Origin: Gammaproteobacteria bacterium HGW-Gammaproteobacteria-11
GTDB taxonomy: Bacteria > Pseudomonadota > Gammaproteobacteria > Pseudomonadales > Pseudomonadaceae
Length of the DNA: 64,000 nt
Direction: 5' to 3'
Assembly (NCBI GenBank): GCA_002840055.1
Contig: PGZJ01000003.1
Span: 62,001-126,000 of the forward strand
Part shown: positions 12,933-57,107 of the stretch, in pieces
How the letters are laid out: every line of letters starts with the position of its first letter
How positions within the stretch are numbered: position 1 is the stretch's first letter
Translations under genes and position numbers: made by a program
The notes under the pieces: generated by a model
The model's input: the letters and a program-made list of their open reading frames with translations, nothing else
What the model was told of the DNA's origin: nothing
The model's database searches: none

Positions 12933-14036
12933 TCAGATGGGCAAATCAAGGGCTGTGAGATGATTGTCCCAACAGAAGTCTTCTCCACCAAGAAGCTCAG
13001 GCTGCGCGCCCGGCAGCACACGATAAAGACCCCCGAGGCCGGACGACACAACAAACCCCCGCGCGCTGGGCAAGGCTCCACCCCCATCCGGAAAGGGTAA
13101 AAGCCCGACAAAGCGGCCAGCGTGGTAGTCGAACAGTGCCAGCTGGTTACCTTTTGGCGCCGTGACCAGGGCAAGCCCACTGAGCGGGTTGATCGCCACA
13201 CTGGCAATGTAATTGGCCAACAGCGCCAGCTCGACCTCGGGAACATGCGGCTCACTGAATTGGCCGGTAGCGGCATCCAAACGCCCCATCAGGGGTGGAG
13301 ACAGCCAGCTCGGACCCTCGAACTGATAACCGACCATCACTATGCCGTCCGGACTGACATCCAGATGATGGCAGCTGAGTTGATGGTGCGAGGGGTGGTG
13401 TTGCTGGACAACCTGCCCCGTCTCAGGATCAAGCAGCGTCAGATTGGGTTGCATGCTCGCCAGATTGAGCTTGATACGGGCAAAGTCAGGATGGGTTCGA
13501 ATGCCCCCGTGGGCAATGGCCAACGTCTGTTTGTCCGGCATCAGGCGCAGTTCATGGGGATCCATGCCGCCACTGGGCATGATCCGCAACGGGCGATACC
13601 GGTGCACGGCATCAAAGACCAGAATACGGCCCTGGCCCGAGTCGATGTGATTGGCCGTTGCATACAACTCACGTCCATCGGCACTGAAGACCGCATGGCC
13701 ATAAAAGTGCAGACCGGGCCCTGCCTCCAGCACCTGAACCAGTTGACCATTACGCAGATCAATCACCAGGGCACGACATCCGGGCCGGCGTTCGACCATA
13801 ACCAGCTCATCACCTCCGGGACGCTGAGCACCCGCATGCAGGCGCCCGGAAACCGGCTGCGACTGGGGGGAGGAGAGCAAGCCGCTCAGCAACAGGTTGT
13901 CAGCGGATGCATTACGACCACCACTGGCCAGTCCGAATTGGCCTGTCCGCGCACCGGCAAGTGTCATTCCGCTACGGCCAGCGCAGCCCGACAACAACCC
14001 CATGGCGGTCCAGGCTAGCAAGGTGCGGCGCTGCAT
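12933..14036 (-). CDS. DUF1513 protein, exported, last gene of the iron-related operon
   Basis: 367 residues. The N-terminus MQRRTLLAWTAMGLLSGC has a twin-arginine-like pair and a lipobox (LSGC). The rest looks like a beta-propeller-type DUF1513 domain (HFYGHAVFSADGRELYAT, GGMDPHELRLMPDKQTL). The product is unknown; members occur next to imelysin proteins in Pseudomonas, and here it follows the second imelysin gene by 2 nt. By context it serves the same periplasmic iron-linked function. Confidence 0.85.
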   Translation of the reverse strand: MQRRTLLAWTAMGLLSGCAGRSGMTLAGARTGQFGLASGGRNASADNLLLSGLLSSPQSQPVSGRLHAGAQRPGGDELVMVERRPGCRALVIDLRNGQLVQVLEAGPGLHFYGHAVFSADGRELYATANHIDSGQGRILVFDAVHRYRPLRIMPSGGMDPHELRLMPDKQTLAIAHGGIRTHPDFARIKLNLASMQPNLTLLDPETGQVVQQHHPSHHQLSCHHLDVSPDGIVMVGYQFEGPSWLSPPLMGRLDAATGQFSEPHVPEVELALLANYIASVAINPLSGLALVTAPKGNQLALFDYHAGRFVGLLPFPDGGGALPSARGFVVSSGLGGLYRVLPGAQPELLGGEDFCWDNHLTALDLPI

Positions 14037-14038
14037 GC

Positions 14039-15049
14039 TCAGTCTCCGTCGGAGGCGTTGAAGCCCCTTACAACCCCAAGCTCGACGGCGATGTCACCAC
14101 CAAGCAGACGGGCCAAACCATCAATATCGATATAGAGCCGTTGTAACTGCAGATAGTGCGTCTGATCCTCAAGGACCGTTGCCATGCCCGGAGGCAGTGT
14201 TTCAAAGCGGACAAGCGCCGATTGCAACAGCTCGGCAAACCGAACCGCCAACCGCTGTTGTGCCGCACCTTGCAACTGCATCTCCAGTCCGGGCAAAAAG
14301 TACGTCTGCAGACCCTGCAAACTGGCCTGGGCCGCCTGCAGACTCGATTGACTGCGCCATGCCTCCGCCAGATAGACATTGCGGCGACCTGCTGGCATGC
14401 CCATGGGCTGCCCCAGGCGCTTGTCACGTAGTTGTTCCAACGCATGCAGGGCCGCCAGCAGCATTTTTGCTTCAGCCTCCGGATCCTCTCGGTAGCGTTG
14501 AGCATAAGCCTGCCAATCGGCCTGCAGCTGGCTTGCATTGTCCGCTAGCCGTTCGGCGACAGCCTTCAGCACACGGCAACTGCCAACCGATGGGAGCGCC
14601 TCACTTCGCGTTTGCAACTGCGGATCAAAAAGCAGGAACTCCAGCGCCGGAAAGCCCTGCACGGCCACACTGTTGAGACTCGGTGGTTGGTCTCCACTGT
14701 GTTGCAGCAGTCGCTCGGTCTGGCTGCCGACCAGATTCTTGTTGTCTGGCCAGAACTGCAATTGCCAGCCCCGGCTGTCGACCAGTAGTGGACCAAAGTC
14801 GATAAAGCGAACGGCTTGCCAGCGACCAAAGGCTGCATGCCAATGCCGTTCCACTTGCTCACGCCGGGCGTCTGACGGCGCGTCGCAATAGGCGGTTGCG
14901 CTGACCTGCAACTGGGCACTGTCGCGCTGCAGCAAGCGATAGCCCTCTGCTCCCGCGCTGGCCCAGCGTTCCTGTGCCGGCTCAGTTGCGAACGCGGGAA
15001 CCGCACTCAGTCCAGCCAGGAGGACAACCAACCCCATGATACGCCGCAT
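14039..15049 (-). CDS. imelysin-family periplasmic protein (EfeO/IrpA-like)
   Basis: 336 residues with a cleavable signal peptide (ends VPAFA). The body is alpha-helical and of imelysin type (FGRWQAVRFIDFGPL, DNKNLVG, GFPALEFLLF). The canonical imelysin GxHxxE metal motif reads GFPALE, so the His is absent while the Glu is kept; it may bind metal differently from the first imelysin gene at 16524-17873. AGGGGG lies 5 nt before the ATG. It follows the DUF1111 gene by 9 nt. Confidence 0.87.
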   Translation of the reverse strand: MRRIMGLVVLLAGLSAVPAFATEPAQERWASAGAEGYRLLQRDSAQLQVSATAYCDAPSDARREQVERHWHAAFGRWQAVRFIDFGPLLVDSRGWQLQFWPDNKNLVGSQTERLLQHSGDQPPSLNSVAVQGFPALEFLLFDPQLQTRSEALPSVGSCRVLKAVAERLADNASQLQADWQAYAQRYREDPEAEAKMLLAALHALEQLRDKRLGQPMGMPAGRRNVYLAEAWRSQSSLQAAQASLQGLQTYFLPGLEMQLQGAAQQRLAVRFAELLQSALVRFETLPPGMATVLEDQTHYLQLQRLYIDIDGLARLLGGDIAVELGVVRGFNASDGD

Positions 15050-15058
15050 ATAGGCCCC

Positions 15059-16459
15059 CTAAAGCGATTCAAGAAAGGCCAGTAAAGCCTGGCGTTGTTC
15101 GGCTGACATCTGCCGATAGAAAGCAATACTGTTTTCGGCTTCACCCGCGTGCCAGAGAATCGCTTCTTCCAGTGTGCGGGCTCGACCATCGTGCAGGAAC
15201 CCCGCCAGCGGGTTGACCTGTTGTGCCAGGCCAATGCCCCATAGCGGTGGGGTTCGCCACTCCCGGCCGTTAGCCAGAAACTCGTCACGACCATCGGCCA
15301 GACCTTCACCCATGTCATGCAGCAACAAATCGGTGTAAGGCCATATACTCTGATTGCTCAGATCCGGGCGTTGATTGACCTCGCCGGTAACATGCCTGGG
15401 TGTATGACAGGCCGCACACTGCGCCTGGTTGAATAGCAGCGCACCGGTCTGCACCTCGGGGCCATCCAGGTTGCGGCGTTGCGGAACGGCCAGACTACTG
15501 GAATAGAAGGCAATGAAGTCGGCAATACGATCACTGACCTCAGGCTCACCGCCATGCGGCAACGCATCACAATGCTGACCTGGTGTACAGTCCGTGGCAG
15601 GCACCAACGACGACGTCAGTCCCATGTCCCCGGCAAAGGCGCCCATGCTCTGTTGCATGATGCTCGGCTCTGCTGCTTTCCAGCCAAAGCGACCCACAAC
15701 AGTTTCTTTACCTGCCTTGTCCCAGACCCGATTGGCCCGACCGGATATGCCGTCAGCATTGCTGTCCTGCGGATCAGCGGCGGCCAGCAGGTCTGCTTCG
15801 GGAATCGCCTCAAGCAAGCCAAGACCTATCATGCCTGGCGCCACCCGCGGCGAAATCAGCAGGTCCGGATGAAGTGGGCCATAGGCTGGCTGGTCGATAT
15901 GGTAACTCGGCTCTCGCAGCGCCACACGGCTGCCATCCGCCAGCTCTACAGTAAACTCACGCCACTCGACCCGCAGCTTGGCTTCTGGCGCTTGCCCGGG
16001 TATGGCAGCAGTTTGCAACTGGCTGCCGTATATCGGCTCGGGCACAAAACCATGCTGGAGAAGCGTCTGGAGATTGCGCTCGGGATCTGCCGGAATGGCC
16101 AAACGCAAGAACAGTGAGACTGAATCAGTGTCGGCCGTCCCAGGATGCCCCCGTCCATCCTTGATATGACAGCCCTGGCAACTGTTGGTATTGAACAGCG
16201 GGCCCAATCCGTCTCGCGCAGCAGTACTGGCCGGCGCGGCGACCCAGGGGTTGCGGAAGAAACTGTTGCCAACGCTGAAATCCAGGCGTTTGGACATTGA
16301 CTGGTTGGCCTGGGGCAACGAGAAGGCATTGTGATCGAACTGCGCAACACTGCCCTCGCCGCCAGTCATGACAGTATCCTGAACCGGGTACTGGGCTTGA
16401 ACAGACGCGTGCGTCAGCATAATCGCAAGTGCAACGGGTAAGACAGGTAACATCGACAT
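15059..16459 (-). CDS. di-heme DUF1111 protein (thiol oxidoreductase-like cytochrome c)
   Basis: 466 residues with a signal peptide (cleavage near AQA, residue 23) and two c-type haem motifs, CQGCH at residues 94-98 and CAACH at 348-352. The layout, including GLGLLEAIPEADLLA and ISGRANRVWD, is that of the DUF1111 family, annotated as di-heme oxidoreductase and related to MauG/cytochrome c peroxidase. It probably performs an electron-transfer step in periplasmic iron handling. It lies between the two imelysin genes. Confidence 0.88.
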   Translation of the reverse strand: MSMLPVLPVALAIMLTHASVQAQYPVQDTVMTGGEGSVAQFDHNAFSLPQANQSMSKRLDFSVGNSFFRNPWVAAPASTAARDGLGPLFNTNSCQGCHIKDGRGHPGTADTDSVSLFLRLAIPADPERNLQTLLQHGFVPEPIYGSQLQTAAIPGQAPEAKLRVEWREFTVELADGSRVALREPSYHIDQPAYGPLHPDLLISPRVAPGMIGLGLLEAIPEADLLAAADPQDSNADGISGRANRVWDKAGKETVVGRFGWKAAEPSIMQQSMGAFAGDMGLTSSLVPATDCTPGQHCDALPHGGEPEVSDRIADFIAFYSSSLAVPQRRNLDGPEVQTGALLFNQAQCAACHTPRHVTGEVNQRPDLSNQSIWPYTDLLLHDMGEGLADGRDEFLANGREWRTPPLWGIGLAQQVNPLAGFLHDGRARTLEEAILWHAGEAENSIAFYRQMSAEQRQALLAFLESL

Positions 16460-16477
16460 TCCACCGGTAAAATCGCA

Positions 16478-16500
16478 GAAGCCCGGCGTAGCCGGGCTTC
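16478..16500 (-). terminator. intra-operon hairpin between imelysin 1 and the di-heme gene
   Basis: GAAGCCCGGC and GCCGGGCTTC are exact reverse complements around a 3-nt loop. It sits in the 64-nt gap after the first imelysin gene. Only a late, broken T run (ATTTTACC) follows, so it may attenuate expression of the downstream three genes instead of stopping it. Confidence 0.55.
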
Positions 16501-16523
16501 ATGCAGCTTAGCGAAAAGACAAC

Positions 16524-17873
16524 TCAGAAAGCGTGGCCGGCATCATCAGGCCGCAATGCCTCTACTCCGAGCAGTGCAGCCACTTGCTCGATCGAAGCCG
16601 TCTGCCCTACCAAGGCGGCGATGGCCTGATCAATCAACGCAGCACCCTCGGCATTGTCAGGCGCAATCATCATGTCGAAGAAGACCGGCTGGTCTTCCTG
16701 CTCGGCGGCGCCTTTGATGGCGCCCAGCGCGGTCATTGACGCGTCCAGCTCAGTGCGCAGGCGCGCATCCAGTTCCGCATCCTGGATAGCCACCAGATCG
16801 GCCAGGGATGGCCCGTTCAGCTCGCTGCCATCTGAACGCAGGAACTGTCCAAGATAAACGTTTTGAATGCCTTTTCCATTGTAATAATGGGAGTTGTGGG
16901 TGTTGTCGCTGAAACAGTCGTGCTCGTCTTCGTAGGAGTTGGCTTCCAATGCCACTTTCATGCGTTCCCCGGCCAATTCGCCGAGGGACAACGAGCCCAT
17001 ACCAAACAACATGCGCTGAACTGCGTCTTCCACTGGCAGCGCCAGCAGTTGTGCGCGGTAATTATCATCGCCCTCTGCCGACCACTGCTCGACCATCCAC
17101 TGCAGATCGCTGACCAGCAGATCAGTCGCGGCATTCAAGTAATCGCCGCGGCGCTCACAGTTACCCTGGGTGCACGCGTCACCAACTACATAGTCGGTAT
17201 ACGGACGCTCACCGGCACCGCGCTGGTAGCCCTGCAAATCCTGACCCCAGAGCAGGAACTCAATGGCGTGATAGCCCGTTGCAACATTGGCCTCGGATCC
17301 GCCTACTTCGTTCAGGCTGGCCAGCAAGCCTGCATTCAACTGAGACACATCCAGTTGCTCGCCACCAATGGTCAGGCTTGAACTGCCAATGATATTGGCG
17401 GTTGCGCCCTCGTTGCCCAGCTCATGCTGATAGCCCTCAGCCGCGACATAGTCGATCAGACCTTCATCCAGCGGCCAGGCATTCAACTGCCCTTCCCAAT
17501 CATCCACCACCGGGTTGCCGAAACGGAATACCTCAGACTGCTGATAGGGAACACGCGCCTCAATCCAGGCCTGCCGCGCTGCCGCCAGGTTGGCCTCTGA
17601 CGGCTCGGCAATCAGCGCATCGGTAGCGGTATCGAGCGCCTTGGCTGTTGCTAGCGCATCAGCAAAAACAGCGTGCGCGAGATCAGCATAGTGGGTAATC
17701 ACAGCTGTTGGCTGAATCACCTGATCAGTCATGCTGTCGCCCACCGGGGTAGCGGGCTCTGCCTGTGCCGGAGTAGCCGAATCAGTGGCAGCCACGTCGT
17801 TATTGCAGCCTGCCAGGAATAGGGCAGCAGACAATGAAACCGCCAGTACGCTGAGTTTATGATGAACGGCCAT
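16524..17873 (-). CDS. imelysin-family iron-regulated lipoprotein (IcmP/IrpA-like)
   Basis: 449 residues. A lipoprotein signal ends in LAGC (Cys about residue 23), then an acidic linker and a long imelysin domain with the metal motif GYHAIEFLLWGQD (HxxE present) and ERRGDYL. Pseudomonas aeruginosa IcmP, an iron-regulated outer-membrane protein once described as an insulin-cleaving protease, is the likely relative; current view favours metal binding over proteolysis. GGGAG precedes the ATG. First gene of the operon and only 26 nt from the Fur box. Confidence 0.88.
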   Translation of the reverse strand: MAVHHKLSVLAVSLSAALFLAGCNNDVAATDSATPAQAEPATPVGDSMTDQVIQPTAVITHYADLAHAVFADALATAKALDTATDALIAEPSEANLAAARQAWIEARVPYQQSEVFRFGNPVVDDWEGQLNAWPLDEGLIDYVAAEGYQHELGNEGATANIIGSSSLTIGGEQLDVSQLNAGLLASLNEVGGSEANVATGYHAIEFLLWGQDLQGYQRGAGERPYTDYVVGDACTQGNCERRGDYLNAATDLLVSDLQWMVEQWSAEGDDNYRAQLLALPVEDAVQRMLFGMGSLSLGELAGERMKVALEANSYEDEHDCFSDNTHNSHYYNGKGIQNVYLGQFLRSDGSELNGPSLADLVAIQDAELDARLRTELDASMTALGAIKGAAEQEDQPVFFDMMIAPDNAEGAALIDQAIAALVGQTASIEQVAALLGVEALRPDDAGHAF

Positions 17874-17898: not shown

Positions 17899-17917
17899 AA
17901 TGATACTAATTATCATT
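17899..17917 (-). promoter_or_regulatory. Fur box upstream of the imelysin/di-heme operon
   Basis: AATGATA-CTAAT-TATCATT is a 19-bp perfect inverted repeat (7-bp arms, 5-nt centre) of the Fur type, 26 nt before the start of the first imelysin gene. It predicts iron repression of the four genes running down to 12933. Confidence 0.85.
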
Positions 17918-18232: not shown

Positions 18233-19156
18233 ATGACGTTGCTGGACATTGATCAGCTGACCTTTGGCTACCGCCAACAGCCTGCTTTGCTGGCTGACAT
18301 AAGCCTACGGCTTGCCGACGGCGACATGCTGGGACTGCTTGGCCCCAATGGCGCCGGCAAGACCACACTGGTGTCACTGATTACCGGATTGCTGCAACCC
18401 AGTCATGGCACCATCTCACTGAACGGCAAGCCCGTCAGGCTGGGTGACCGCAGGATTGCACTGGTGCCTCAGGAATATGCTTTCTATCCGCGCCTCAGCG
18501 GCCGGGAAAACCTCACCTATTTTGCCGGCGTACAGGGCCTAAAAGGCTCAGCCGCCAAGCAGGCTGTCGACAGAGTACTGGCGCAATGTGCACTGACCTC
18601 ATCCCAACATCAGCGCGCAGCCAGGTACTCGGGTGGACTTAAACGCCGATTGAATTTTGCCATCGCCCTACTGAGCCCTCCGCAGCTGCTGATTCTCGAC
18701 GAGCCAACGGCCAACGTCGACCCGCAAACCCGCAAGCTGTTATTGGACATAGTCCGTGACCTTAATCGCGAGGGCGTGGGCATTATCTATACTTCACACC
18801 TGCTCGGCGAGGTTGAAAACCTGTGCAACCAGGTCGCCCTGCTGCACGAGGGTCGAGTGGTGCTACACGGCAGCATGCATGACTTGCTCGAAGAAACGCA
18901 GCATTTCGTCTCCCTGAAGACTGCACACGCCCCGCCAGCTGACCTGATCAGCCGCTTCAATGCCAGTCAGCTGGCCAATCAGTGGTGGCGTTTTGAACTC
19001 CCCGCAGGCACCACGGTAACTGGCTTGCTCGCCACACTTGAGCAGGCCGGCCTGCACTACACACATATCCGCTATGGTACCCAGGCGCTTGAAGATATCT
19101 ATCTGGCGCTGACCAGTGATACTGGCCATGCCAGCTTCAAGCGCGTCGCGTCATGA
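18233..19156 (+). CDS. ABC transporter ATP-binding protein of the DAR cluster
   Basis: 307 residues. Walker A is GPNGAGKTT, the signature is YSGGLKRRL, Walker B is LLILDEPTANVDP, and the switch is TSHLLGEVE. The SGGLKRRL wording and a C-terminal domain of about 90 residues are typical of ABC-2 exporters of the drug/polyketide/antibiotic type. It overlaps the permease gene by four bases. GGGAG lies just before the ATG. Linked ATPase/permease pairs occur in flexirubin-type clusters, so the likely cargo is the pigment or a lipid precursor; this is inference from context. Confidence 0.9.
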   Translation: MTLLDIDQLTFGYRQQPALLADISLRLADGDMLGLLGPNGAGKTTLVSLITGLLQPSHGTISLNGKPVRLGDRRIALVPQEYAFYPRLSGRENLTYFAGVQGLKGSAAKQAVDRVLAQCALTSSQHQRAARYSGGLKRRLNFAIALLSPPQLLILDEPTANVDPQTRKLLLDIVRDLNREGVGIIYTSHLLGEVENLCNQVALLHEGRVVLHGSMHDLLEETQHFVSLKTAHAPPADLISRFNASQLANQWWRFELPAGTTVTGLLATLEQAGLHYTHIRYGTQALEDIYLALTSDTGHASFKRVAS

Positions 19157-20316
19157 CCGCTTTCATAGCTGCCCTGCGCAAGGAACTGCGTCTGCTACTG
19201 CGGGACTGGCATGCGCTGCTGTTGCTGTTTTTGATGCCCAGCGCCTTTGTCATCATCATGTCGCTGGCATTGGCTGGCAGTTTTGCTGATGACCAGCAAC
19301 TGCAACTCAAAGGCTATCTGGTCAGCCCCGATACGCCCAGTGCCGCCAGTGATGATTTCCTCGCGACCCTGAACACCAGTGCTCTGTTTGACCTGCAGCC
19401 CGCCACCCTGACCACGCCACTGCGGCTCAGTGGGCGCAGTTTTGTACTGCAGATACACGAGGATTTTGACGCAGCTCTGGACACGCCTGGCGCCAGTGGC
19501 TTGAGTCTTGGCTTTGCTGCCGAGATGGGTCTGCGCGAACGCGCGCTGATCCGCGCCGCCGTGCAACAGCTTTTTGCCAAGTACTACACCCATCTGATTG
19601 CCTACGAGCTGGGTTATGACGATGACTATGCCCGCGAAGAGTTGCTGCGCGAAGGCTTTGTCAGTGAACTGCCCGGTAGTACCGGCGGCAGCCCTAATGC
19701 CGTGCAGCAGAACGTGTCCGGCTGGCTGATCTTTGCCATGTTCATTATTGCCATTCCACTTTCCACCACAGTGATTCAGGAGCGCAGTGAGCGCACGCTG
19801 ATGCGCCTGCAAACCCTCGGCGCTTCACTGATCAGTATCTATCTGGCCAAGCTGCTGCCCTACGGCGTAGTCAATCTGCTGCAACTGCTGCTGATGCTGG
19901 TCCTGGGTGCATGGCTACTGCCGCTGCTGGGAGCACGCGGCCTGTCACTGCAGATCAACTGGTCAGCACTGCTGCTGATGGGATTGGCCACCAGTTTTGC
20001 CGCCCTGTGTGTGGCCAGTCTGGTCGCTACTGCCGCTCGTACCGTGGAACAGGCTACGGTGTTCAGTGGCGGCCTGACCATTTTGCTGGCCGCCATCAGC
20101 GGTATTATGATTCCAACCTTCATCATGCCGCAGGCCATGCAAAGCATGGCTGCGATGTCACCCATGAACTGGGCGCTGGAGGGCTTTCTCGAGGTACTGG
20201 TCAGACAAGGCACGCCGAGCGATGTCATGCACTACTGTTTTCGTTTATTTCTGTTTGGCCTCCTGATCGGGACGCTGGCAGCATTTCTGCTGAAAAGGAA
20301 CAATCAACATGGCTGA
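19153..20316 (+). CDS. ABC-2 type permease of the DAR cluster
   Basis: 387 residues with the ABC-2 exporter layout: one N-terminal helix (about 21-40), a periplasmic domain of about 150 residues (40-185), then five or six helices with IPLSTTVIQERSERTLMRL between the first two. It forms the membrane channel for the ATPase just upstream. Its end overlaps the acyl carrier protein gene by eight bases, tying export to synthesis within one operon. Confidence 0.9.
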   Translation: MTAFIAALRKELRLLLRDWHALLLLFLMPSAFVIIMSLALAGSFADDQQLQLKGYLVSPDTPSAASDDFLATLNTSALFDLQPATLTTPLRLSGRSFVLQIHEDFDAALDTPGASGLSLGFAAEMGLRERALIRAAVQQLFAKYYTHLIAYELGYDDDYAREELLREGFVSELPGSTGGSPNAVQQNVSGWLIFAMFIIAIPLSTTVIQERSERTLMRLQTLGASLISIYLAKLLPYGVVNLLQLLLMLVLGAWLLPLLGARGLSLQINWSALLLMGLATSFAALCVASLVATAARTVEQATVFSGGLTILLAAISGIMIPTFIMPQAMQSMAAMSPMNWALEGFLEVLVRQGTPSDVMHYCFRLFLFGLLIGTLAAFLLKRNNQHG

Positions 20317-20575
20317 GCCAGATGCCGAGCTGAAACACGCATTGAAGGTATTGATCATTGAGGAATGCGACAAGGATGAACTCAGCCCTGAGGACATCAG
20401 CGATGAGCAGGCTCTGCTCGGTGGCGATCTCGATCTGGACTCACTTGATGTACTGCAAATTTGCATGGCGATAAAAGCCGAATACGGCGTCCGTATCGAA
20501 GGTTCAAAAGAGGCTCGCAAGGCACTGGGGTCAATCAATACCCTGGCGCAAACCATCATTGATCGCCGCAGCTGA
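20309..20575 (+). CDS. acyl carrier protein of the DAR cluster
   Basis: 88 residues with the 4'-phosphopantetheine site at Ser45 in LDLDSLDVLQ. It is acidic, with the four-helix ACP pattern. It starts inside the permease gene and its stop overlaps the ketosynthase start by one base (TGATG). It should carry the growing beta-keto chain used by DarB and the ketosynthase pair that follows. Distinct from the two ACPs of the aryl polyene cluster at 58.7-59.3 kb. Confidence 0.93.
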   Translation: MAEPDAELKHALKVLIIEECDKDELSPEDISDEQALLGGDLDLDSLDVLQICMAIKAEYGVRIEGSKEARKALGSINTLAQTIIDRRS

Positions 20576-21759
20576 TGCACGTCAGTCTCTCTGCCTATGA
20601 TGCTTATTGTGCGCTGGGCCGTGGTATCGAGACCTGTGTCGATCAGTTGCTGGCCGGTGGCGTAGCTGTCGGCCAGCGTCAGTTTGACGGATTGAACGAA
20701 GCCCTGACCCTGCCCTACTTTGCCATCCCAGCCGGCAGTGAGCATGGCTCAGACAGCGGGCCAGATCTATATCACATGCTCAGTCAAGTTGCCGGTGGCG
20801 TACTGGTCAACAGCGGGCTGGATGCTACAGCCAGGCAGCGCACAGCGATACTGCTCGGCTCATCCTCATTTGACGTGCAAGTTTCCGAACAACGCTACCA
20901 GGCCGATCTGCTGCAACGCGGCGATGCTGCAGTGCCCATGCCGATTGTCGGCTACGGTAAACTGGCCGATCGCCTGGCCAATGAGTTGGCGCTGAGCCCA
21001 TACCGATTTACCTACAGTACCGCCTGCACGTCCAGCGCCAATGCCCTGCTCTATGGCCAGCGGCTGATCAGTGCGGGCCTGGTTGAGCATGCGCTGGTGA
21101 TCGGTCTGGAGTGGCGAAACCTTACCAGCATACTGGGCTTTGCCGGACTGGGATTGCTCAGTCCGACTGCCAGCATGCGGCCTTTTCAGAGTGGCCGCGA
21201 TGGTTTGCTACTCGGTGAAGCCATCGGTTGTGTGTTACTCAGTCACCCACAGCACGCCGCAACAGGCGCACCGCGCTTGGCCGGTGGCGCCATAGCCACC
21301 GACAATCACAGCCTGACTGCCGCCAATGTGGACGGTATTGATCTGGCCAGGGTTATCCGTCAGGCATTGCTGGATAGCGGCATCAACAGCGCTGAAATAA
21401 AAGGCATCAAAGCACACGCTACCGCATCGCTGAAAAATGACGAAGCCGAATCCGCGGCTATCCGACAGGTACTGGGCGACACACCGCCCCCGCTGTTTGC
21501 ACTGAAACCTTTTTGTGGCCATACCCTGGGAGCCAGCGGCGCGCTTGAGCTGGCACTGACATTGGGCTGCCTGGCTCGCGGTGTGTTACCCGGAAATCAG
21601 CGCGTTCAATGTGATGAATCACTGGGCATCAGCCTGCTGAGCGACACTATAATCGCCGAGAGCGGCTATTACCTGCTCAACTCCTTTGCCTTCGGTGGTA
21701 ACAATAACGCGCTGGTGATTCACCATCCTGGCAGCGAGGCACCGACATGCGCATCGTAA
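20575..21759 (+). CDS. beta-ketoacyl-ACP synthase (FabF-like) of the DAR cluster
   Basis: 394 residues, a condensing enzyme with the full Cys-His-His triad: Cys151 in STACTSSANA, His281 in KAHATASLKNDE, and His316 in FCGHTLGASGA. It would elongate acyl-ACP chains destined for DAR assembly. Compared with housekeeping FabF it lacks several conserved stretches and is about 20 residues shorter. It overlaps the next gene by 13 nt, consistent with working as a pair with that cysteine-less homologue. Confidence 0.92.
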   Translation: MHVSLSAYDAYCALGRGIETCVDQLLAGGVAVGQRQFDGLNEALTLPYFAIPAGSEHGSDSGPDLYHMLSQVAGGVLVNSGLDATARQRTAILLGSSSFDVQVSEQRYQADLLQRGDAAVPMPIVGYGKLADRLANELALSPYRFTYSTACTSSANALLYGQRLISAGLVEHALVIGLEWRNLTSILGFAGLGLLSPTASMRPFQSGRDGLLLGEAIGCVLLSHPQHAATGAPRLAGGAIATDNHSLTAANVDGIDLARVIRQALLDSGINSAEIKGIKAHATASLKNDEAESAAIRQVLGDTPPPLFALKPFCGHTLGASGALELALTLGCLARGVLPGNQRVQCDESLGISLLSDTIIAESGYYLLNSFAFGGNNNALVIHHPGSEAPTCAS

Positions 21760-22637
21760 TCAGCAGCCATTACAGCCTGCTGCACAGCATTGATGCTGCC
21801 GAGCCGCAACTGCCGGATCTTCAGGCACTGATACAGCGCTGGCACCCCGAACGTATCCGCCGCATCGACCGGTATATTCAGCTCTGCGTGGCTGGCGGGC
21901 TGAACTGTGTAGCCGGTCGTCAATTGCCCGCTGATACCGGTGTGTATCTGAGTTCCAGCGCTGGCGCGGTGAGCACGTCCAGCGCCGCTATGCGCCATAT
22001 CCAACAACAGGGCGAGCTGCCAAAACCGCTGCATTTCGTCAACACCCTGGGCAACTCGGCCGGCTATTACCTGACCCGACTACTTCAGCTCAACGGCAAT
22101 ACCTTGCTGGTTTCGGACGAGGAACTGTCCTTTGAGGCGGCGCTGCTGCACGCCGGCATGGATCTGCTGGCTGGCCGCATCAGTACCGCACTGGTGGGCG
22201 GTTTCGATGAGGTAGCAATACCGATAGCACAGCACCTGGAACGTCTGCGAGCCCCCGCCGATACCGCCAGTCTCTACGAAGGCAGCCATTGGTTACTGCT
22301 GGAAATGCAGAACAACAGCCAGAACCCGATTACCGGCGAGCTGGAACTACCCAGCTATCTACGCGACATGGAAACGCTGGCACAGTGGCTAGACCAGCAT
22401 ATTGAGCGGCCCCTGCAACTGAGCTTCAGACCAAATGCAAAGGAACGTGCGCTGCTGAGCAACAGGCAGTGGCAGGAATTTGCAGGCAAGGCATTGCCAC
22501 ACGGGGTGTTTTCAGGCGCAGCACTGAATGCTCTGGTGGGCGGAAATCAATCCGCCATTCACCTCAGCAAAAAAACCGGCGGCAGCTACTGCGCGGTGAT
22601 AGTCAGCTTTGCGGAGTCGCCTGCACCCAGCGTTTGA
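21747..22637 (+). CDS. degenerate ketosynthase-like protein, probable partner of the preceding enzyme
   Basis: 296 residues with a ketosynthase N-terminal fold (VYLSSSAGAVSTSSA, FVNTLGNSAGYYL). The expected active-site segment (TACxSG) reads NTLGNSAG, so the catalytic Cys is missing, and the C-terminal His region is absent. Such proteins act as non-catalytic partners or chain-length factors in heterodimeric ketosynthases. The last 35 bp overlap the end of the convergent BtrH-like gene. Confidence 0.8.
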   Translation: MRIVISSHYSLLHSIDAAEPQLPDLQALIQRWHPERIRRIDRYIQLCVAGGLNCVAGRQLPADTGVYLSSSAGAVSTSSAAMRHIQQQGELPKPLHFVNTLGNSAGYYLTRLLQLNGNTLLVSDEELSFEAALLHAGMDLLAGRISTALVGGFDEVAIPIAQHLERLRAPADTASLYEGSHWLLLEMQNNSQNPITGELELPSYLRDMETLAQWLDQHIERPLQLSFRPNAKERALLSNRQWQEFAGKALPHGVFSGAALNALVGGNQSAIHLSKKTGGSYCAVIVSFAESPAPSV

Positions 22638-23601
22638 GGCCCTGCCAGGCGACACTTTCCTGTTCCGCACAGTCACGCAGTTTGTCCGCCAGCATCTGGC
22701 GATCGATCGGCTGATCGCGCTTGCACTGCTTGGCTACCAGCAAGGCAAACTCGCGCCAACCATCGCCCACCGCGGTCATGTTTTCCGAAGCCTCGGCCAG
22801 TACCTGATCGTCCAGTTTGTTGGCCGCTTCCTGCAGGAATGAGGCGTAGATAAATCGGAAGCCTGCGCCGCCCGTACCTATCTCTTCCTGCATGCGCACG
22901 ATATGGCCGAGAAACAGGCGCTGCTCCTGTTCAGTACCCTTGAGTCGCTCAATCTTGCCGGCCAGATAGCGGATACCGCGCACACCAATCACCGGCAAGG
23001 GTGCGCCGGTCATGACCTTGACGTTCTTGCCGATCGCCTCACGAATCAGACTCGGATAATCCAGCTCCTGAGGAACTGACTCAATGCTGTACATAAGGCC
23101 CTTGGGTGCCAACGGGCCACGGACAAAACGCGCCTTGTTCAGATCACGCGCGGCAATCTGCACCGGCTCTTCAAAGATCGGATCGCTGACCAGATACTGT
23201 TTTTCCTGTTTGCCATACACCAACAAATTGTGCGCATTGAAATGGAAGCGCATTTCTTCGGGAAAGTACGGCAAATAATATACAGACGTCTGCAAGCCTA
23301 CCGGCGTGTTGGCTGCCAGCATGTCGTCCAGCGCATTAGCCGCACGCAGCGGATCTTTGAAGGTTTGGAAACGGACCTTCACGCCCAGGCGCTTGCACAG
23401 GTTCTTGATGATAAAGCGCGGCGGCAGGCGATAGGCAATCAGCGGCTGACCAGCCAGTTTCACAATCGGGATATAGGCAAACGCCAGCGCATTGGCCAGA
23501 CCGAAGGCCATTGGCTCGGAGATCGGTAAACCGTGGTGTGAAAGCAAAGCCGAGATCGCGCCACTTTCGCAGTGGGCTGACTGGGTGTGTTGAAATGTCA
23601 T
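22603..23601 (-). CDS. BtrH-like acyltransferase / cysteine peptidase-fold protein
   Basis: 332 residues from the ATG at 23601; an extended ORF upstream to 23775 is not conserved in character. The N-terminus has HTQSAHCESGAISALLSHHG, where the Cys heads a helix as the nucleophile does in papain-fold transferases. A segment with FNAHNLLVYG and YLVSDP resembles the catalytic His/Asp part. This is the BtrH N-terminal domain plus DUF4872 architecture. BtrH transfers an acyl chain from an ACP to butirosin's amine. Similar genes sit in flexirubin clusters. Its ATG overlaps the stop of the small gene upstream (ATGA). Confidence 0.82.
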   Translation of the reverse strand: MTFQHTQSAHCESGAISALLSHHGLPISEPMAFGLANALAFAYIPIVKLAGQPLIAYRLPPRFIIKNLCKRLGVKVRFQTFKDPLRAANALDDMLAANTPVGLQTSVYYLPYFPEEMRFHFNAHNLLVYGKQEKQYLVSDPIFEEPVQIAARDLNKARFVRGPLAPKGLMYSIESVPQELDYPSLIREAIGKNVKVMTGAPLPVIGVRGIRYLAGKIERLKGTEQEQRLFLGHIVRMQEEIGTGGAGFRFIYASFLQEAANKLDDQVLAEASENMTAVGDGWREFALLVAKQCKRDQPIDRQMLADKLRDCAEQESVAWQGLKRWVQATPQS

Positions 23602-24005
23602 GGGCGTGATTCCGGCAGGGTTTTCAATTCGCTGATGGTTTTGTCCATGGCCTGTGCATAACGCGACAGTACCCTGGCACTCAACCCCGCAAAGACGTTC
23701 GGCTTGAAGTGGCGATTGACCCGCCAACGCCAAAACCCGGTGAGCTGACAAAGCAAGGGTGGATCCATACGGCAATCGTACATGTGAAAATACAAAGGCG
23801 ATTTCTGGCCAGCTTCAACTTCTGCACGGGCCTGATCAGCCCAAGCCTGATATTGCGCAACGGCATCCAGCGTGGCATTGGCCTCGGCCTCCCAACCGGA
23901 GGACTGCACGCCGGTATAAGCGCCAGATTCGTCCTGGGCGTAGAGCAGTTTTTTATGTCCGGCATAGGTACTGGACTGATCCTGTGGCACCTCATCAATG
24001 CGCAT
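23598..24005 (-). CDS. conserved hypothetical protein of DAR clusters, HTH-like C-terminus
   Basis: 135 residues of unknown function. The first half (IDEVPQDQSSTYAGHKKLLYA, SGWEAEANATLDAV) looks soluble. The last 45 residues (LTGFWRWRVNRHF, FAGLSARVLSRYAQAM, ISELKTLPE) resemble a lambda-repressor-like helix-turn-helix. It is stop-start coupled to the BtrH-like gene and lies 86 nt after darB, so it belongs to the darA-darB-btrH operon. It may be a small regulator or an adaptor protein; no catalytic motif was seen. Confidence 0.7.
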   Translation of the reverse strand: MRIDEVPQDQSSTYAGHKKLLYAQDESGAYTGVQSSGWEAEANATLDAVAQYQAWADQARAEVEAGQKSPLYFHMYDCRMDPPLLCQLTGFWRWRVNRHFKPNVFAGLSARVLSRYAQAMDKTISELKTLPESRP

Positions 24006-24091
24006 GCAAGCCTCACTGGACTGACGGTTCAGACCGTCTTTTTATTGGACTACCCTTTCATTGGTCCGCGTGCATGCTCAGCGGCGCACTG

Positions 24092-25243
24092 TCAAACCAC
24101 CGTCAACAGCATGTAAGAAACAGAGAAACGGCCGCTTTCAGGGATGTAACAGAGAATCTTCTCGCCGGGTTGCAGGCGACCACTTTTGAACAGCTCATCA
24201 ATCATGATGTAAATGGACGCGGCACCGGTATTGCCCTTCTCTGACAGATTACTGAACCAGCGCGACTGATCAATGCCAAAGCCGACTGACTGCATGGTCT
24301 GATCCAGCTTGTCTCGAAAATAATGTGAAGAAAAATGCGGCACAAAGTAATCAATCTGATCGGCTGAAATAGCATATTTCTTTTGCACAACGGGTAAGGT
24401 GCGGGTCGCGGTAAGCTCAATAATATGTTCGTTGAGCTGTTTGACATCCTGCTTGACCGACAGAAAACTCTCAGTATTACAGACTGTGCGGTCGACAGCC
24501 TGCCAGCCAGTCAGTGAACCATCCGGCTCTTTGCGACCGCCGGCATACATGCACACGCTCATTTCATTGGCGTAGGACAGGTTGTCGATCCACTCGACCC
24601 GAAGCGCCAGCCCCTTCTTGGGCTTTTCAGACTGCAACAGCACTGCGCCAGCGCCATCAGAAAGCATCCAGCGTAAAAAATCCTTTTCAAAGGCGATTTC
24701 CGGATGGCTTTCCAGCGCAGCAACCTTGTGCGCCAGTTCCGGCTCAAAATTCTCCGCCTTCATGGCATAGGAAGCCGCTTCCGAGGCGGCCGCCACCGCA
24801 CTGGGATGTTGACCGGCAGCGACATTGAGCCAGGCGTACTTCATCGCTGTCATACCACTGACACAAACACCTGACACACTGGCTATCTCGCAGGGTGGTG
24901 AGCCCAGTTCACCGTGGACCATGGAAGCATGACCCGGCATGATCTGATCAGGGATGCTGCTGGCCGCCGCCAGACAACTGATATCGCTCAAGGCAAAATC
25001 TTCTGAGATCAGGCCTCGCACTGCCTCGGCACATAACTGCGCATTAGTGTAGTTATGTTTGCCGGTAAGCGGATCAATGGCGTAATAGCGCGTCCTGATC
25101 TGATTGCTGCGCAAAATCAACTTGCGCGACCGTGAGGGACGTTCACCTACCTGCCCGAGAATTTTCTCCATACTGTCGTTATCGACCGGAGCATTGGGCA
25201 GGAAACTGGCTGTGCGCGTAATGTATACGGAGTGAGCTGGCAT
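24092..25243 (-). CDS. darB: DarB-type beta-ketoacyl synthase (KAS III-like)
   Basis: 383 residues with the KAS III triad Cys127 (SVSGVCVSG), His303 (VPHFSSHYF) and Asn338 (EKGNTGAAS). The N-terminal wording (FLPNAPVDNDSME, ILRSNQIRTRYYA) is the one I recognise from DarB proteins of flexirubin and dialkylresorcinol clusters. DarB condenses two beta-keto acyl chains and closes the ring to the cyclohexenone precursor, which DarA then aromatises. It lies 23 nt downstream of darA on the same strand. Confidence 0.88.
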   Translation of the reverse strand: MPAHSVYITRTASFLPNAPVDNDSMEKILGQVGERPSRSRKLILRSNQIRTRYYAIDPLTGKHNYTNAQLCAEAVRGLISEDFALSDISCLAAASSIPDQIMPGHASMVHGELGSPPCEIASVSGVCVSGMTAMKYAWLNVAAGQHPSAVAAASEAASYAMKAENFEPELAHKVAALESHPEIAFEKDFLRWMLSDGAGAVLLQSEKPKKGLALRVEWIDNLSYANEMSVCMYAGGRKEPDGSLTGWQAVDRTVCNTESFLSVKQDVKQLNEHIIELTATRTLPVVQKKYAISADQIDYFVPHFSSHYFRDKLDQTMQSVGFGIDQSRWFSNLSEKGNTGAASIYIMIDELFKSGRLQPGEKILCYIPESGRFSVSYMLLTVV

Positions 25244-25266
25244 TGTTGCTTAAGAAATCCTTTCTA

Positions 25267-26205
25267 TCAGTCGCCGGAAGGCCCGGCATAATAAGCCTTC
25301 TGCCCGGCAATACGTTTTTTCATCAAGGGTGAAAACAGCCATTTCAGAATCGCCGTTATCGGCACCACGGTCACAATCATCAGCAGCAGAAACAGGGTGT
25401 AAAGTGCTGCAAGCGGCTTGCGCATCAAGCTATCGGGCGCGCCGCACGCCAAAAACAACTTGCCCCACAAATAGAAACTGCGGGTAGCGATTTTTTCGCT
25501 GAGAATCAGTTTGTCATTGACCGGGGCGGCACCCAGCCCTTTCAATACGTCGATGTCCAACGCCTCAGCGCTGGTGAGACGTTGGCGCAGTGCCTCACCG
25601 AAACGCTGCGCGCCCTCGACATCCCGTTCAGAAACGCCGGCCGGCGGCACCAGCCCAAACCAGTGCGGCCCCTTGCGGCCGGTGAGCACCCACAAGGGGG
25701 TAGCAAAGAAACTGGCAACACTGCCAGCCGCATCCACCAAGACAATATTGCCCACCAGGTTTGCGCCCAGCCTGTGCAGATGCGCCTTCACCTTTTCCTG
25801 TGCCTGCAGCCACATGTTACGGCAGGCAATCACGGTTACAACCGGGGTGTCAGCCAGGAGTCTGGCCGCGAGGTCGGACTGCAAAAACGAGGACACGGGA
25901 ATGGACGGTGCCAGATACCAGACCTGATACGCCAGAATCACCAGGTCGTATTGCGACTGCAAGTGCTCGATCTGCAAATCGAGGGCACAGGGTACCTGAT
26001 GCGCAGACTCGGGAAAGGTATTGATAAAACGCAGAAACGGCCAGGGAAAAGGAAAGGCCTCACGCGGCTTGAGCGGCAAAAAGTCCAGCTGCACGGCATC
26101 GTCGTTCAGCAGCGGCGTCGCGACTGAACGAGCTACACGCTCGAGTTGACCGGTCTGCGAATAATGGACGACCAGCACGCGCTTTTTAGTTTTCGAATCC
26201 TGCAA
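25267..26205 (-). CDS. darA: DarA-type dialkylresorcinol aromatase (flavodoxin-like)
   Basis: 312 residues. The N-terminus VLVVHYSQTGQLERVA is a flavodoxin-type FMN loop. LVILAYQVWYLAPSIPVSSFL and VVTVIACRNMWLQAQE are wording I recognise from dialkylresorcinol condensing enzyme DarA. A membrane helix lies near the C-terminus (residues about 270-292), so the enzyme is membrane-tethered. It is thought to oxidise the DarB cyclohexenone product to the resorcinol. The start codon is TTG with GGAGAGGTAGGA before it. First gene of the leftward operon darA-darB-hypothetical-btrH. Confidence 0.88.
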   Translation of the reverse strand: MQDSKTKKRVLVVHYSQTGQLERVARSVATPLLNDDAVQLDFLPLKPREAFPFPWPFLRFINTFPESAHQVPCALDLQIEHLQSQYDLVILAYQVWYLAPSIPVSSFLQSDLAARLLADTPVVTVIACRNMWLQAQEKVKAHLHRLGANLVGNIVLVDAAGSVASFFATPLWVLTGRKGPHWFGLVPPAGVSERDVEGAQRFGEALRQRLTSAEALDIDVLKGLGAAPVNDKLILSEKIATRSFYLWGKLFLACGAPDSLMRKPLAALYTLFLLLMIVTVVPITAILKWLFSPLMKKRIAGQKAYYAGPSGD

Positions 26206-26307
26206 ATCCTACCTCTCCGCACATCGCGCCTGCCGATGAATATCGTGCGAGAGCCATGCTAAACTGCGCGAAAGTTTATCATAGCTTGGCAAATTGACGG
26301 TAACAGC

Positions 26308-26763
26308 ATGGATAATTCAGGACAGTGGCGAACAATCCTGTTCGTCAGCATCGCTGCACTACTGACCTGCACCTCGGTAACGGCCAGTCCGTTTCAGCTA
26401 GTGATAACCGACAATGCCTCGCCGACGCTGCCAATTTACATCGCTATCTATCCGGCTAGCGCCAAGGACTGGGACAGCGAGCCGACATTGCGGTTACACG
26501 AAGTCCTGCCTGAAACGCAGACGGTGGAGATCGCGCTGGACCTGCCGCCTGGCGAATACGCGATCCGCGCCTTTGTTGATCATGACAACAATGGTGCGCT
26601 GAATCTGAATCACAGGGGCCACCCGGCAGAACCCTATGCCAGCAGCCTGAGCCCCGAACGCAATCGCCGCAGTCAGCGCTTTGAGCACGCCATCATCATG
26701 CTCACCGCAGACCAACCATCCGTGAGCATTGGCCTGACATACCCTCGCAGCAGCGATGACTAG
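26308..26763 (+). CDS. DUF2141 family exported protein
   Basis: 151 residues with a signal peptide ending near TASP. The central signature GEYAIRAFVDHDNNGALNLNHRGHPAEPY is split over several motifs typical of DUF2141, a small secreted beta-sandwich family often found near pigment or carotenoid genes. Its function is unknown. It is transcribed divergently from darA and its stop overlaps the stop of the convergent hot-dog gene by four bases. Confidence 0.83.
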   Translation: MDNSGQWRTILFVSIAALLTCTSVTASPFQLVITDNASPTLPIYIAIYPASAKDWDSEPTLRLHEVLPETQTVEIALDLPPGEYAIRAFVDHDNNGALNLNHRGHPAEPYASSLSPERNRRSQRFEHAIIMLTADQPSVSIGLTYPRSSDD

Positions 26764-27068
26764 GCAGGTACCAGCACAAACGAGGCGTCCAGAATCTGCA
26801 TCATCTCGCCTGCCTCATCCAGACGCTGTACGCTGACCTGCACACGCGGCCAGCGATTGTCATCAATATTGATCTGTGCTGACTGTTCCGGCAGCAGCGG
26901 AAGCAGAAACTTGACCTTTTTCAACGCCTCAACCCGCCAATTCGGATAACGGGCCAACAACACCGCGTGCACCTTACCGAGCAGCCAGGCGCCAGGCACC
27001 ACTGGCATACCCGGGAAGTGGCCCTGTACACAGGGGGCATCGGCTTCAACAATAAAGTGCTCAGTCAT
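26760..27068 (-). CDS. hot-dog fold 3-hydroxyacyl-ACP dehydratase-like protein (ApeI/FabZ-like)
   Basis: 102 residues, a single hot-dog domain with the dehydratase motif QGHFPGMPVVPGAWLL, whose His is the catalytic base of FabZ-type enzymes. Short, like the ApeI-type dehydratases of aryl polyene pathways. It would remove water from 3-hydroxyacyl-ACP intermediates. It is divergent from the second hot-dog protein at 27117 and convergent with the DUF2141 gene. Confidence 0.82.
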   Translation of the reverse strand: MTEHFIVEADAPCVQGHFPGMPVVPGAWLLGKVHAVLLARYPNWRVEALKKVKFLLPLLPEQSAQINIDDNRWPRVQVSVQRLDEAGEMMQILDASFVLVPA

Positions 27069-27116
27069 GGGTTATGATTAGCCGCCGAATGAATGTCAGT
27101 GCTCCGATCGAACACC

Positions 27117-27584
27117 ATGGATACCAGAAAATTGCCTGCGCTCTTGCCACCGATTGCCGATCTATTACCGCACAGTGCGCCTATGGTGCTCCTGGACGCT
27201 ATCAGCCTGTGGGATCAGCAGACTATTCGCTGTCTCACCCAAAGCCATCTGCTACCAGACAACCCCCTGCGCGACGGCGGCGTGTTATCGGTATTTGCCG
27301 GCGTTGAGTATGCCGCCCAGGCCATGGCCATACATGCCCGCCTGCTCGACTCGGCAACGGCAGACATCCCGCCACGCAAAGGCTTTCTCGCCGTCGCCTC
27401 AAAGTTAAACGCCAATGTCGATGTGCTCGATCACATTGCTGCGCCCATTCAGGTTGAAGCAAACATGCTGGCGCATAATACCGACAGTTCACTTTATGCC
27501 TTCAGCCTGACTGCCGATGGCCAGACACTCCTGAGCGGCCAACTGACTGCCGTTATCATCAGCGATACCAGCTCGAGACCTTAG
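27117..27584 (+). CDS. hot-dog fold dehydratase-like protein (ApeP-like)
   Basis: 155 residues from 27117; a start at 27093 adds eight residues and cannot be excluded, since neither has a good Shine-Dalgarno. The pattern LLPHSAPMVLLDAI near the N-terminus and FAGVEYAAQAMAIHA later are those of the ApeP-like half of hot-dog dehydratases (COG4706). In aryl polyene synthesis an ApeI-type and an ApeP-type protein form a heterodimer; the small gene at 26760-27068 is the likely partner. Confidence 0.8.
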   Translation: MDTRKLPALLPPIADLLPHSAPMVLLDAISLWDQQTIRCLTQSHLLPDNPLRDGGVLSVFAGVEYAAQAMAIHARLLDSATADIPPRKGFLAVASKLNANVDVLDHIAAPIQVEANMLAHNTDSSLYAFSLTADGQTLLSGQLTAVIISDTSSRP

Positions 27585-27611
27585 GCAAGGCAAGTCTATA
27601 GCGCAAAGAAC

Positions 27612-28184
27612 CTACCAAAGATAGGGCAAAAACATCTTGCTGCGTTGCAGATAGTCGCGGTAACTGACTCCAAAAAAATCACAGTTTTCCTGTTCTTCCG
27701 TGCGTGCCGTCAAATACAGCGCAAGGGACACCAGGAGGGCAACAACGATGGCATCAAGCGCTGGTCGCTTCAGCACCAGCCCCCAGTTCAACAGCAACAA
27801 TGAGCTGTACATGGGGTGGCGGATAAAAGCATAAATGCCCTGGGTAACCAGGGTACTGGTATTTTCGAAGCTGAAATTCTCTTCCGCCTGCCGCAGTGAG
27901 CTGGCGCCACCATATCGGCGCAACCCATACACACCGCCAATCAACAAGCCCAGCGCTGACAGCATCATCAGTAACGACAGTAGCTGCGGTAGCGAAGTTA
28001 TATTGTGATGCCAGAGTCGCAGGGCGTTGAGGAAAAGCCAGAGGATGCCTTCAAAGGCAAAGAATCGGTAAAACCCGTGACATCCAGGGTTAAGTAACTG
28101 ACGCCGACATAACCACGCCAGTGCACAGCTGAGCACAATAAACAGCGGCACAATGACCGCTTGCAGGTTAACAGCTACATCCAT
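27612..28184 (-). CDS. isoprenylcysteine carboxylmethyltransferase-like membrane methyltransferase
   Basis: 190 residues with four or five membrane helices and the C-terminal signature YAFIRHPMYSSLLLLNWG followed by RTEEQ, the SAM-binding pattern of the ICMT/PEMT family. The substrate cannot be read from sequence. It lies at the edge of the DAR cluster, convergent with the ApeP-like gene, so it might methylate a pigment hydroxyl or ring; equally it could be an unrelated membrane-lipid methyltransferase. Confidence 0.8.
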   Translation of the reverse strand: MDVAVNLQAVIVPLFIVLSCALAWLCRRQLLNPGCHGFYRFFAFEGILWLFLNALRLWHHNITSLPQLLSLLMMLSALGLLIGGVYGLRRYGGASSLRQAEENFSFENTSTLVTQGIYAFIRHPMYSSLLLLNWGLVLKRPALDAIVVALLVSLALYLTARTEEQENCDFFGVSYRDYLQRSKMFLPYLW

Positions 28185-57020: not shown

Positions 57021-57107
57021 GCCTCGATGGCGGAATTGGTAGACGCGGCGGATTCAAAATCCGTTTCTGGTGACAGAGTGGGAGTTCGATTCTCCCTCGA
57101 GGCACCA
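57021..57107 (+). tRNA. tRNA-Leu (anticodon CAA)
   Basis: 87 nt with an encoded CCA end. The acceptor stem GCCTCGA / TCGAGGC is perfect, the D-loop has GGTAGAC, the anticodon loop is TTCAAAA (anticodon CAA), there is a long variable arm typical of class II tRNAs, and the T-loop reads GTTCGATTC. A tRNA-Leu downstream of queA is a conserved Pseudomonas arrangement. Its last bases form half of a 25-bp palindrome. Confidence 0.97.

Follow-up and report, generated by a model that had tools for sequence, protein, structure and literature searches.

Background

Among the closest described systems to the locus reported here is the dar cluster of Azoarcus sp. BH72, which runs darK-J-C-I-F-E-D-B-A and whose product is arcuflavin, a xanthomonadin-dialkylresorcinol (polyene) ester, according to the available text of PMC3949708. 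Here, we analysed a 64,000-nucleotide stretch of Gammaproteobacteria bacterium HGW-Gammaproteobacteria-11 (contig PGZJ01000003.1, positions 62,001 to 126,000; hereafter, the window), in which a single dialkylresorcinol (DAR) island of 13 open reading frames occupies 18233-28184. Judging from sequence, the island is probably the DAR half of an aryl polyene (APE)-DAR pathway of the flexirubin/arcuflavin type for a yellow membrane pigment, with the polyene half 29 kb downstream and a DAR-polyene ester as the predicted product. We base this on several lines: DarB, DarE, and DarD pass their family cut-offs; the core genes match those of the dar cluster in the arcuflavin producer Azoarcus sp. BH72; an APE gene set lies on the same contig, and DarE and ApeP co-occur across genomes; the catalytic residues of DarB and DarE are invariant; and among 80 DarB loci DarD and DarE are never found apart.

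In the same available text, the Azoarcus cluster resembles the island in its ketosynthase (KS), acyl carrier protein (ACP), permease, ATPase, BtrH-like protein, DarD, DarB, and DarA, with a hypothetical protein in the place of the KS partner, and its polyene clusters likewise lie elsewhere in the genome. It lists no DUF2141 protein, hot-dog pair or methyltransferase, whereas the island has all of them, and its polyene half is of the xanthomonadin type with a chorismatase start, whereas that of the window is of the ammonia-lyase type.

Closer to the host, hybrid APE-DAR clusters (V1-V3) are reported for marine Pseudomonadaceae, such as Pseudomonas sp. 8O, in the accessible part of PMC10165715, and a resorcinol-arylpolyene cluster from a Pseudomonas appears in an excerpt of PMC12032627. 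The Pseudomonas sp. 8O locus (L110) shows the island's order, DUF2141/DarA-B-D-E/chain-length factor (CLF)-KS-ACP-permease-ATPase/ICMT; its DarB is only 52% identical, and its APE genes adjoin the DAR half, unlike in the window. With the Azoarcus arcuflavin cluster and these published hybrids, the kind of pathway is thus already known, and the features of its own that the present locus shows are the separate placement of the halves, the distinct lineage of its DAR half, and the additional dehydratase pair.

The flexirubin clusters of Chitinophaga and Flavobacterium, as described in the available part of PMC3992019, likewise have DarA and DarB and build an aryl polyene from an ammonia-lyase start; they belong to a different phylum, and the flexirubin-specific DarG model NF053545 is not reached by the window DarD (131.2 vs. 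170 bits). A flexirubin-like gene set in a gammaproteobacterial genus, seemingly from two separately placed halves, makes flexirubin-type pigments weaker as a Bacteroidetes marker, a weakness already argued in PMC3949708.

The dialkylresorcinol island

All 13 frames are open. From left to right, the island carries the ATPase, permease, ACP, KS, and half-size KS-like partner on the plus strand, DarE, DarD, DarB, and DarA on the minus strand, and then a DUF2141 gene (+), hot-dog gene 1 (-), hot-dog gene 2 (+), and a membrane methyltransferase gene (-). Gene models were scored with Pfam and NCBIfam profiles at curated cut-offs, and we follow the Azoarcus naming, in which DarE is the BtrH-like protein (DarH in NCBIfam) and DarD the small protein (DarG family in NCBIfam).

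For comparison we used 80 DarB loci retrieved with an alignment of DarB, the best 80 of 550 relatives from the named scan, from which records very near the window's genome are perhaps left out; gene counts refer to the stretches fetched. The core order DarA-B-D-E/CLF-KS-ACP-permease-ATPase is kept strand for strand in 33 of these loci, so the island is no chance assembly of open reading frames. The initial annotation had proposed a 13-gene DAR island at this place, and the open frames, profile matches, and conserved order bear it out. Its inventory stood in number, with two repairs: the start of the BtrH-like gene moves from 23775 to 23601, and the DarD gene had been counted yet left unnamed.

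DarB (24092-25243, minus strand), the ketosynthase/cyclase, reached 589 bits against the StlD/DarB model NF005293 (cut-off 450) and matched the solved StlD structure (5gk0) with 455 bits (E 1.3e-135). Its catalytic Cys127, His303, and Asn338 are invariant in 84/84 DarB sequences. The adjoining DarA (25267-26205, minus strand) gave no Pfam or NCBIfam match, with Pfam tried to E 10, and homologues of it were found in 77 of the 80 loci. The assignments first made for these two proteins are in this way upheld, that of DarB by profile and that of DarA by its homologues. An AlphaFold2 model of DarA (pLDDT 92.8) has FMN flavoproteins as its nearest folds in the PDB (best E 1.7e-6); several unrelated membrane receptors are also among the fold matches, presumably because of the helical C-terminal part. 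Homology and the flavodoxin-like predicted fold point to DarA as the candidate aromatase, and a flavoprotein would fit the aromatising oxidation of a cyclohexanedione.

DarE (22603-23601, minus strand; 332 aa) combines BtrH_N and DUF4872 and lies well over the cut-off of NF053550 ('DarH'; 478.8 vs. 300 bits). Its gene overlaps that of DarD by 4 bases. Cys11, His124, and Asp140 are present in 76/76 DarE sequences, and a sequence search of the PDB found no relative at E 1. BtrH transfers an acyl group from an ACP. With the Cys-His-Asp set kept and the family named after BtrH, DarE is the best candidate for joining the polyene to the resorcinol.

DarD (23598-24005, minus strand) passes the DarG family model NF053536 (171.8 vs. 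70 bits). In its AlphaFold2 model (pLDDT 87.9), the C-terminal half weakly matches an XRE-type helix-turn-helix fold; there is also a weak DUF4123 match (E 0.04). Of the 80 loci, 72 have both DarD and DarE and none was seen to have only one of them, and DarD may be a partner of DarE or a regulator. The roles of DarE and DarD, and the need for a dehydratase pair in the DAR island, become testable questions.

The type II polyketide parts precede them. The ACP (DarC-like; 20309-20575, plus strand; PF00550, 24.4 bits) has its attachment site at Ser45, and D44-S45 is invariant in the 65-row family alignment. The KS (DarJ-like; 20575-21759, plus strand; PF02801/PF00109) keeps Cys151 and His316, and its best solved relative is 6qsp_A, from the entry of the X. 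doucetiae ApeO-ApeC pair (PMC8358021, available part). The following gene (DarK-like; 21747-22637, plus strand) encodes a half-size KS partner or chain-length factor with weak KS matches. In it the active-site STACTS is replaced by SDEELS and the cysteine is gone, as the initial annotation had said of this partner. A search of PDB sequences with it returned chance matches only. ApeC is likewise half the size of its KS in the accessible text of PMC8358021.

Upstream of these genes lie those of the exporter, with an ATPase (DarF-like; 18233-19156, plus strand; PF00005, 107 bits) present in 65 of the 80 loci and an ABC-2 permease (DarI-like; 19153-20316, plus strand; PF12698, 84.7 bits) present in 63.

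Two hot-dog dehydratases had also been proposed. Both are closest to APE proteins in Pfam and both stay below the curated cut-offs: hot-dog protein 1 (26760-27068, minus strand) is ApeI-like (PF22818, 25.3 vs. 28.5 bits) and hot-dog protein 2 (27093-27584, plus strand) is ApeP-like (PF22817, 18.1 vs. 27 bits). By their residues they hold complementary halves of an active site. Protein 1 has the GHFPG motif (His17) and lacks a glutamate where one is usually found, and the GHFP histidine is found in 13/13 rows; protein 2 has the ExxAQ glutamate and no GHFPG, with His27, Glu72, and Gln76 in 15/15 rows. These rows are best tblastn matches of unproven orthology, and L101 and perhaps L046, L060, L065, and L067 (hot-dog 2 set) may be ApeP or other hot-dog proteins. 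Among solved structures, each protein is closest to one chain of 6qsr (6qsr_A, E 1.5e-4, for protein 1; 6qsr_B, E 0.03, for protein 2), an entry taken to be ApeI:ApeP from its chain names and the match of the genome's own ApeP. In a genome of another, related family (G055), a single 255-residue protein next to DarA combines both hot-dogs as a fusion (L009:13374-14141). The complementary residues, the 6qsr matches, and this fusion suggest that the pair is probably a split ApeI:ApeP-like dehydratase supplying the unsaturated substrate of DarB. Both hot-dog genes are present in 6 of the 80 loci.

The two remaining genes encode a DUF2141 protein (26308-26763, plus strand; PF09912, 50.9 bits) with an apparent signal peptide, as judged by eye, and a membrane methyltransferase of the PEMT/ICMT type (27612-28184, minus strand; PF04191, 37.1 bits); each is present in 25 of the 80 loci. 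In two other genomes of the genus this end of the island differs. In G021, a methyltransferase-like gene, named by eye, adjoins the ICMT gene (L008:3240-4343), and in G030, two extra genes, which we take to be DUF1254-like, stand between hot-dog 2 and the methyltransferase (L007:13218-14347); the window has none of them.

The aryl-polyene half and the proposed pathway

A full flexirubin-like toolkit had been suggested from the DAR genes, with the polyene half overlooked; this half is found on the same contig. A match of the ApeP model at G000:C1:133072, which is 7 kb outside the window, led us to it. The cluster spans window coordinates 57307 to about 74600, 10.6 kb past the window end, with its remainder at G000:C1:126000-136593.

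Within the window all its genes are on the plus strand. The first encodes an ApeC-like chain-length factor (57307-57981; PF13723, 149 bits), followed by an acyltransferase (ApeD-like; 57978-58802; PF01553, 46 bits), two consecutive ACPs (ApeE/ApeF-like; 58738-59260; LDSID and IDSID motifs by eye, starts uncertain), and a membrane protein that is ApeG-like by position only (59263-59799; an open reading frame with no Pfam match). Then come an AMP ligase fused to an ApeI-like dehydratase (59760-61478; PF00501; PF22818, 38.4 bits vs. a cut-off of 28.5), a glycosyltransferase (61475-62221; PF00535), a lipid A-type acyltransferase (62113-63159; PF03279; start uncertain), and an aromatic amino acid ammonia-lyase with an ASGD motif (63125-64000, cut by the window end; PF00221, 541.7 bits).

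Beyond the window the order continues with a thioesterase, a LolA-like protein, an MMPL exporter, a Trp-halogenase-like flavoprotein (L030:14019-15299, window coordinates 68018-69298), a DUF3261 protein, a KS (ApeO), ApeP, the ketoreductase ApeQ, and the KS ApeR. The last gene is phosphopantetheinyl transferase-like, with 20.6 bits under a Pfam cut-off of 25. The polyene may be halogenated, or the Trp-halogenase-like enzyme may be an oxidase. A tRNA-Leu (CAA) lies at 57021-57107, 200 bases before the first APE gene.

Homologues of DarB and DarA are known to catalyse condensation-cyclisation to a cyclohexanedione and its oxidation to a resorcinol, respectively. In the pathway that we propose, the island ACP, the KS-CLF pair, and the ApeI:ApeP-like split dehydratase would produce a beta-ketoacyl thioester and an alpha,beta-unsaturated acyl thioester; the reduction step would need a shared ketoreductase, since the island has none. 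DarB would join both thioesters and cyclise them to the cyclohexanedione, which DarA would oxidise to the resorcinol. On the polyene side, the ammonia-lyase product would be loaded by the ApeH-type ligase and extended by ApeO-ApeC/ApeR, ApeQ, and ApeI:ApeP. DarE would then move the polyene acyl chain from the ACP to a resorcinol hydroxyl, and the ABC-2 exporter, together with the APE export genes (MMPL, LolA-like), would put the pigment in the envelope.

The island could instead be wholly or partly inactive or silent here, for instance if a needed ketoreductase or regulator were missing. The source is a metagenome-assembled genome, 75.9% complete and 4.1% contaminated, and the missing ketoreductase also speaks for such a defect. 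Set against this, 13/13 frames are open, the active-site residues are kept, and a single-contig genome of the genus (G030) has a 90% identical DarB and the same gene order beside guaA, so we regard inactivity as improbable.

Association of the two halves

To see how far the two halves go together, we counted DarE and ApeP, each over its cut-off, in 370 genomes from the class and in 37 from the genus, uncorrected for kinship. In the class sample, DarE was found in 18 genomes, ApeP in 35, and both in 13. ApeP was thus present in 13/18 genomes with DarE vs. 22/352 without it (Fisher p 3e-11), and in 12/17 with our own genome excluded (p 2e-10). In the genus, all three genomes with DarE (3/37) are among the nine with ApeP (9/37), with a chance of 0.011, or 0.044 without our own genome. 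DarE-like matches below the cut-off in two genomes (G011 and G039), with no other island gene in the surrounding 19 kb, were left uncounted. An excerpt of PMC10382565 does not name its single Halopseudomonas strain among those listed with an APE cluster, in line with these 9/37 if the genus is Halopseudomonas.

At closer range, at least two APE genes lie within 10 kb of DarB in 25 of the 80 loci, and all 25 have DarE. In G055, APE and DAR genes are contiguous. We also examined ten genomes with DarE chosen from among the 80 loci: each has the ammonia-lyase (59-68% identical) and ApeR (57-68%), a count that leans to yes because seven of the ten were chosen with at least two APE genes already in view. 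That the separation of the halves is peculiar to the genus was considered and rejected, as they are also on different contigs in P. peli and S. stutzeri (draft assemblies).

Several points weigh against the assignment to a DAR-polyene ester pathway. The two halves are separated by 29 kb of other genes, and no ketoreductase lies within the island. The narrower resorcinol_DarB model NF053539 is missed by DarB (491.8 vs. 550 bits). The candidacy of DarE is founded on a family name and conserved residues, and the available text of PMC3992019 proposes another enzyme, FlxW, for the joining step. Besides, in 5 of the 18 genomes with DarE no ApeP passes its cut-off, so that DarE and this type of APE are not invariably associated.

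This last count would also fit an island that makes a free DAR or cyclohexanedione, as a signal or antifungal, exported by the ABC transporter, with DarE adding a common fatty acyl chain or no polyene at all and the APE cluster working alone. DarA and DarB alone are enough for free DARs in other bacteria, such as P. chlororaphis and Photorhabdus. The island also has its own exporter, and a row with DarA and DarB only (L070) falls within the same DarB clade as the window. In the available part of PMC6403133, P. chlororaphis darABC has DarA, DarB, and a darC gene in common with the island; it consists of three biosynthetic genes with the AraC-type regulators darS/darR and yields free 2-hexyl-5-propylresorcinol.

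The DarB tree speaks otherwise. It is a quick tree of one gene, with 84 DarB proteins besides StlD and no Bacteroidetes rows. The window DarB sits inside a 64-row clade of mainly DarE/DarD-bearing clusters, in which a second row, L038, comes from an incomplete stretch. The darAB-only Pseudomonas rows (L089, L111) and the Photorhabdus rows fall outside it. This placement agrees with the view of the initial annotation that the island is richer than the simple darABC of P. chlororaphis. Together with the strong co-occurrence of DarE and APE, and with the DAR-polyene ester that goes with the same core set in Azoarcus (PMC3949708, available text), it makes a free DAR unlikely as the product and favours the ester.

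Origin and genomic context

Among the 80 loci, the nearest island is that of Gilvimarinus polysaccharolyticus (L036), which leads in 11 of the 12 genes shared in the fetched stretch; DUF2141 is the single exception. Its identity compared with the next best is 72 vs. 58% for DarB, 74 vs. 59% for DarE, 56 vs. 44% for the KS, and 58 vs. 40% for the CLF. The Gilvimarinus locus has the same order, including both hot-dog genes; there the APE genes come right after the DAR half, and no ICMT gene was found in the fetched stretch. The DarB tree unites the window, G030, G021, and Gilvimarinus (SH-aLRT 99).

A separate clade of 24 rows (SH-aLRT 98) holds Pseudomonas, Stutzerimonas, and Thiopseudomonas together with one other gammaproteobacterium. 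Forcing the window's three DarB proteins together with these 24 rows was rejected by the approximately unbiased (AU) test (p = 1.95e-5), with the group named after seeing the tree. The 24 loci have the same core order in 24/24, DUF2141 in 22, and the methyltransferase in 22, and hot-dog 1 was found in none of them.

These rows reject a rarity of the island in the family. The initial annotation had called such a toolkit unusual in this lineage: this fails for the family, with 24 of the 84 DarB proteins of the tree in the Pseudomonas clade and the hybrids described in the available text of PMC10165715, and stands as uncommon for the genus (3/37). Thus, its observation was sound and the weight given to it overstated. 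Its likeness to Bacteroidetes in particular did not hold either: the flexirubin-specific DarG model is missed, and the core set is that of the proteobacterial Azoarcus cluster, in a comparison whose tree has no Bacteroidetes rows. A recent transfer from Bacteroidetes, making this a flexirubin cluster of Bacteroidetes type outside its usual phylum, would account for an ammonia-lyase start joined to a DAR half as in flexirubin clusters. Yet the DarG result and, indirectly, the 11 of 12 shared genes nearest to a gammaproteobacterium (among 80 loci with no Bacteroidetes rows) render it highly improbable.

In the APE half, some of the ten genomes are nearer than Gilvimarinus. Its ammonia-lyase is 62% identical, vs. 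68% in Pseudomaricurvus and 66% in P. straminea and S. stutzeri, and its ApeR is 59% identical, vs. 68% in Pseudomaricurvus. Gilvimarinus also has two ApeR-like ketosynthases in tandem (G427:C1:223823-226272). Of the nine genus genomes with ApeP, seven have the ammonia-lyase at a distance of 31-35 kb from guaA, which suggests an old APE locus in the genus; the two genes are on separate contigs in G010 and far from each other in G032.

The DAR island adjoins guaA in the window's genome and in G030, and lies elsewhere in G021. We read the region downstream of guaA in 20 genomes of the genus (of the 35 besides these first two; G021 included). Mla-type transport genes directly follow guaA in 7/20 and come after 1.8-7.0 kb in another 7/20; in 6/20 the 5.7-8 kb fetched showed none of them. 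The guaA/Mla junction is thus variable within the genus, and some relatives have an empty site there. The window has 16.8 kb between the Mla-type lipid transport operon (8034-11519) and the guaA junction (28344), made up of an imelysin/DUF1513 group and the DAR island. The GC content of the island (53-59% in 1-kb steps) is little different from the rest of the window.

Tentatively, the DAR half may be a portable plug-in module, acquired apart from the polyene half and inserted beside guaA near an older, resident APE locus, by which a lineage with an ordinary APE would have gained a flexirubin-like ester from halves of different origin. In that case the module would have brought its own ACP, KS-CLF, split dehydratase, DarE, its possible partner DarD with the tentatively predicted helix-turn-helix fold, and exporter.

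The neighbouring group at 12933-17873 encodes two imelysins (PF09375), one di-haem peroxidase-like protein, and one DUF1513 protein. Upstream of it, near 17900, an AT-rich Fur-box-like stretch was noted by eye.

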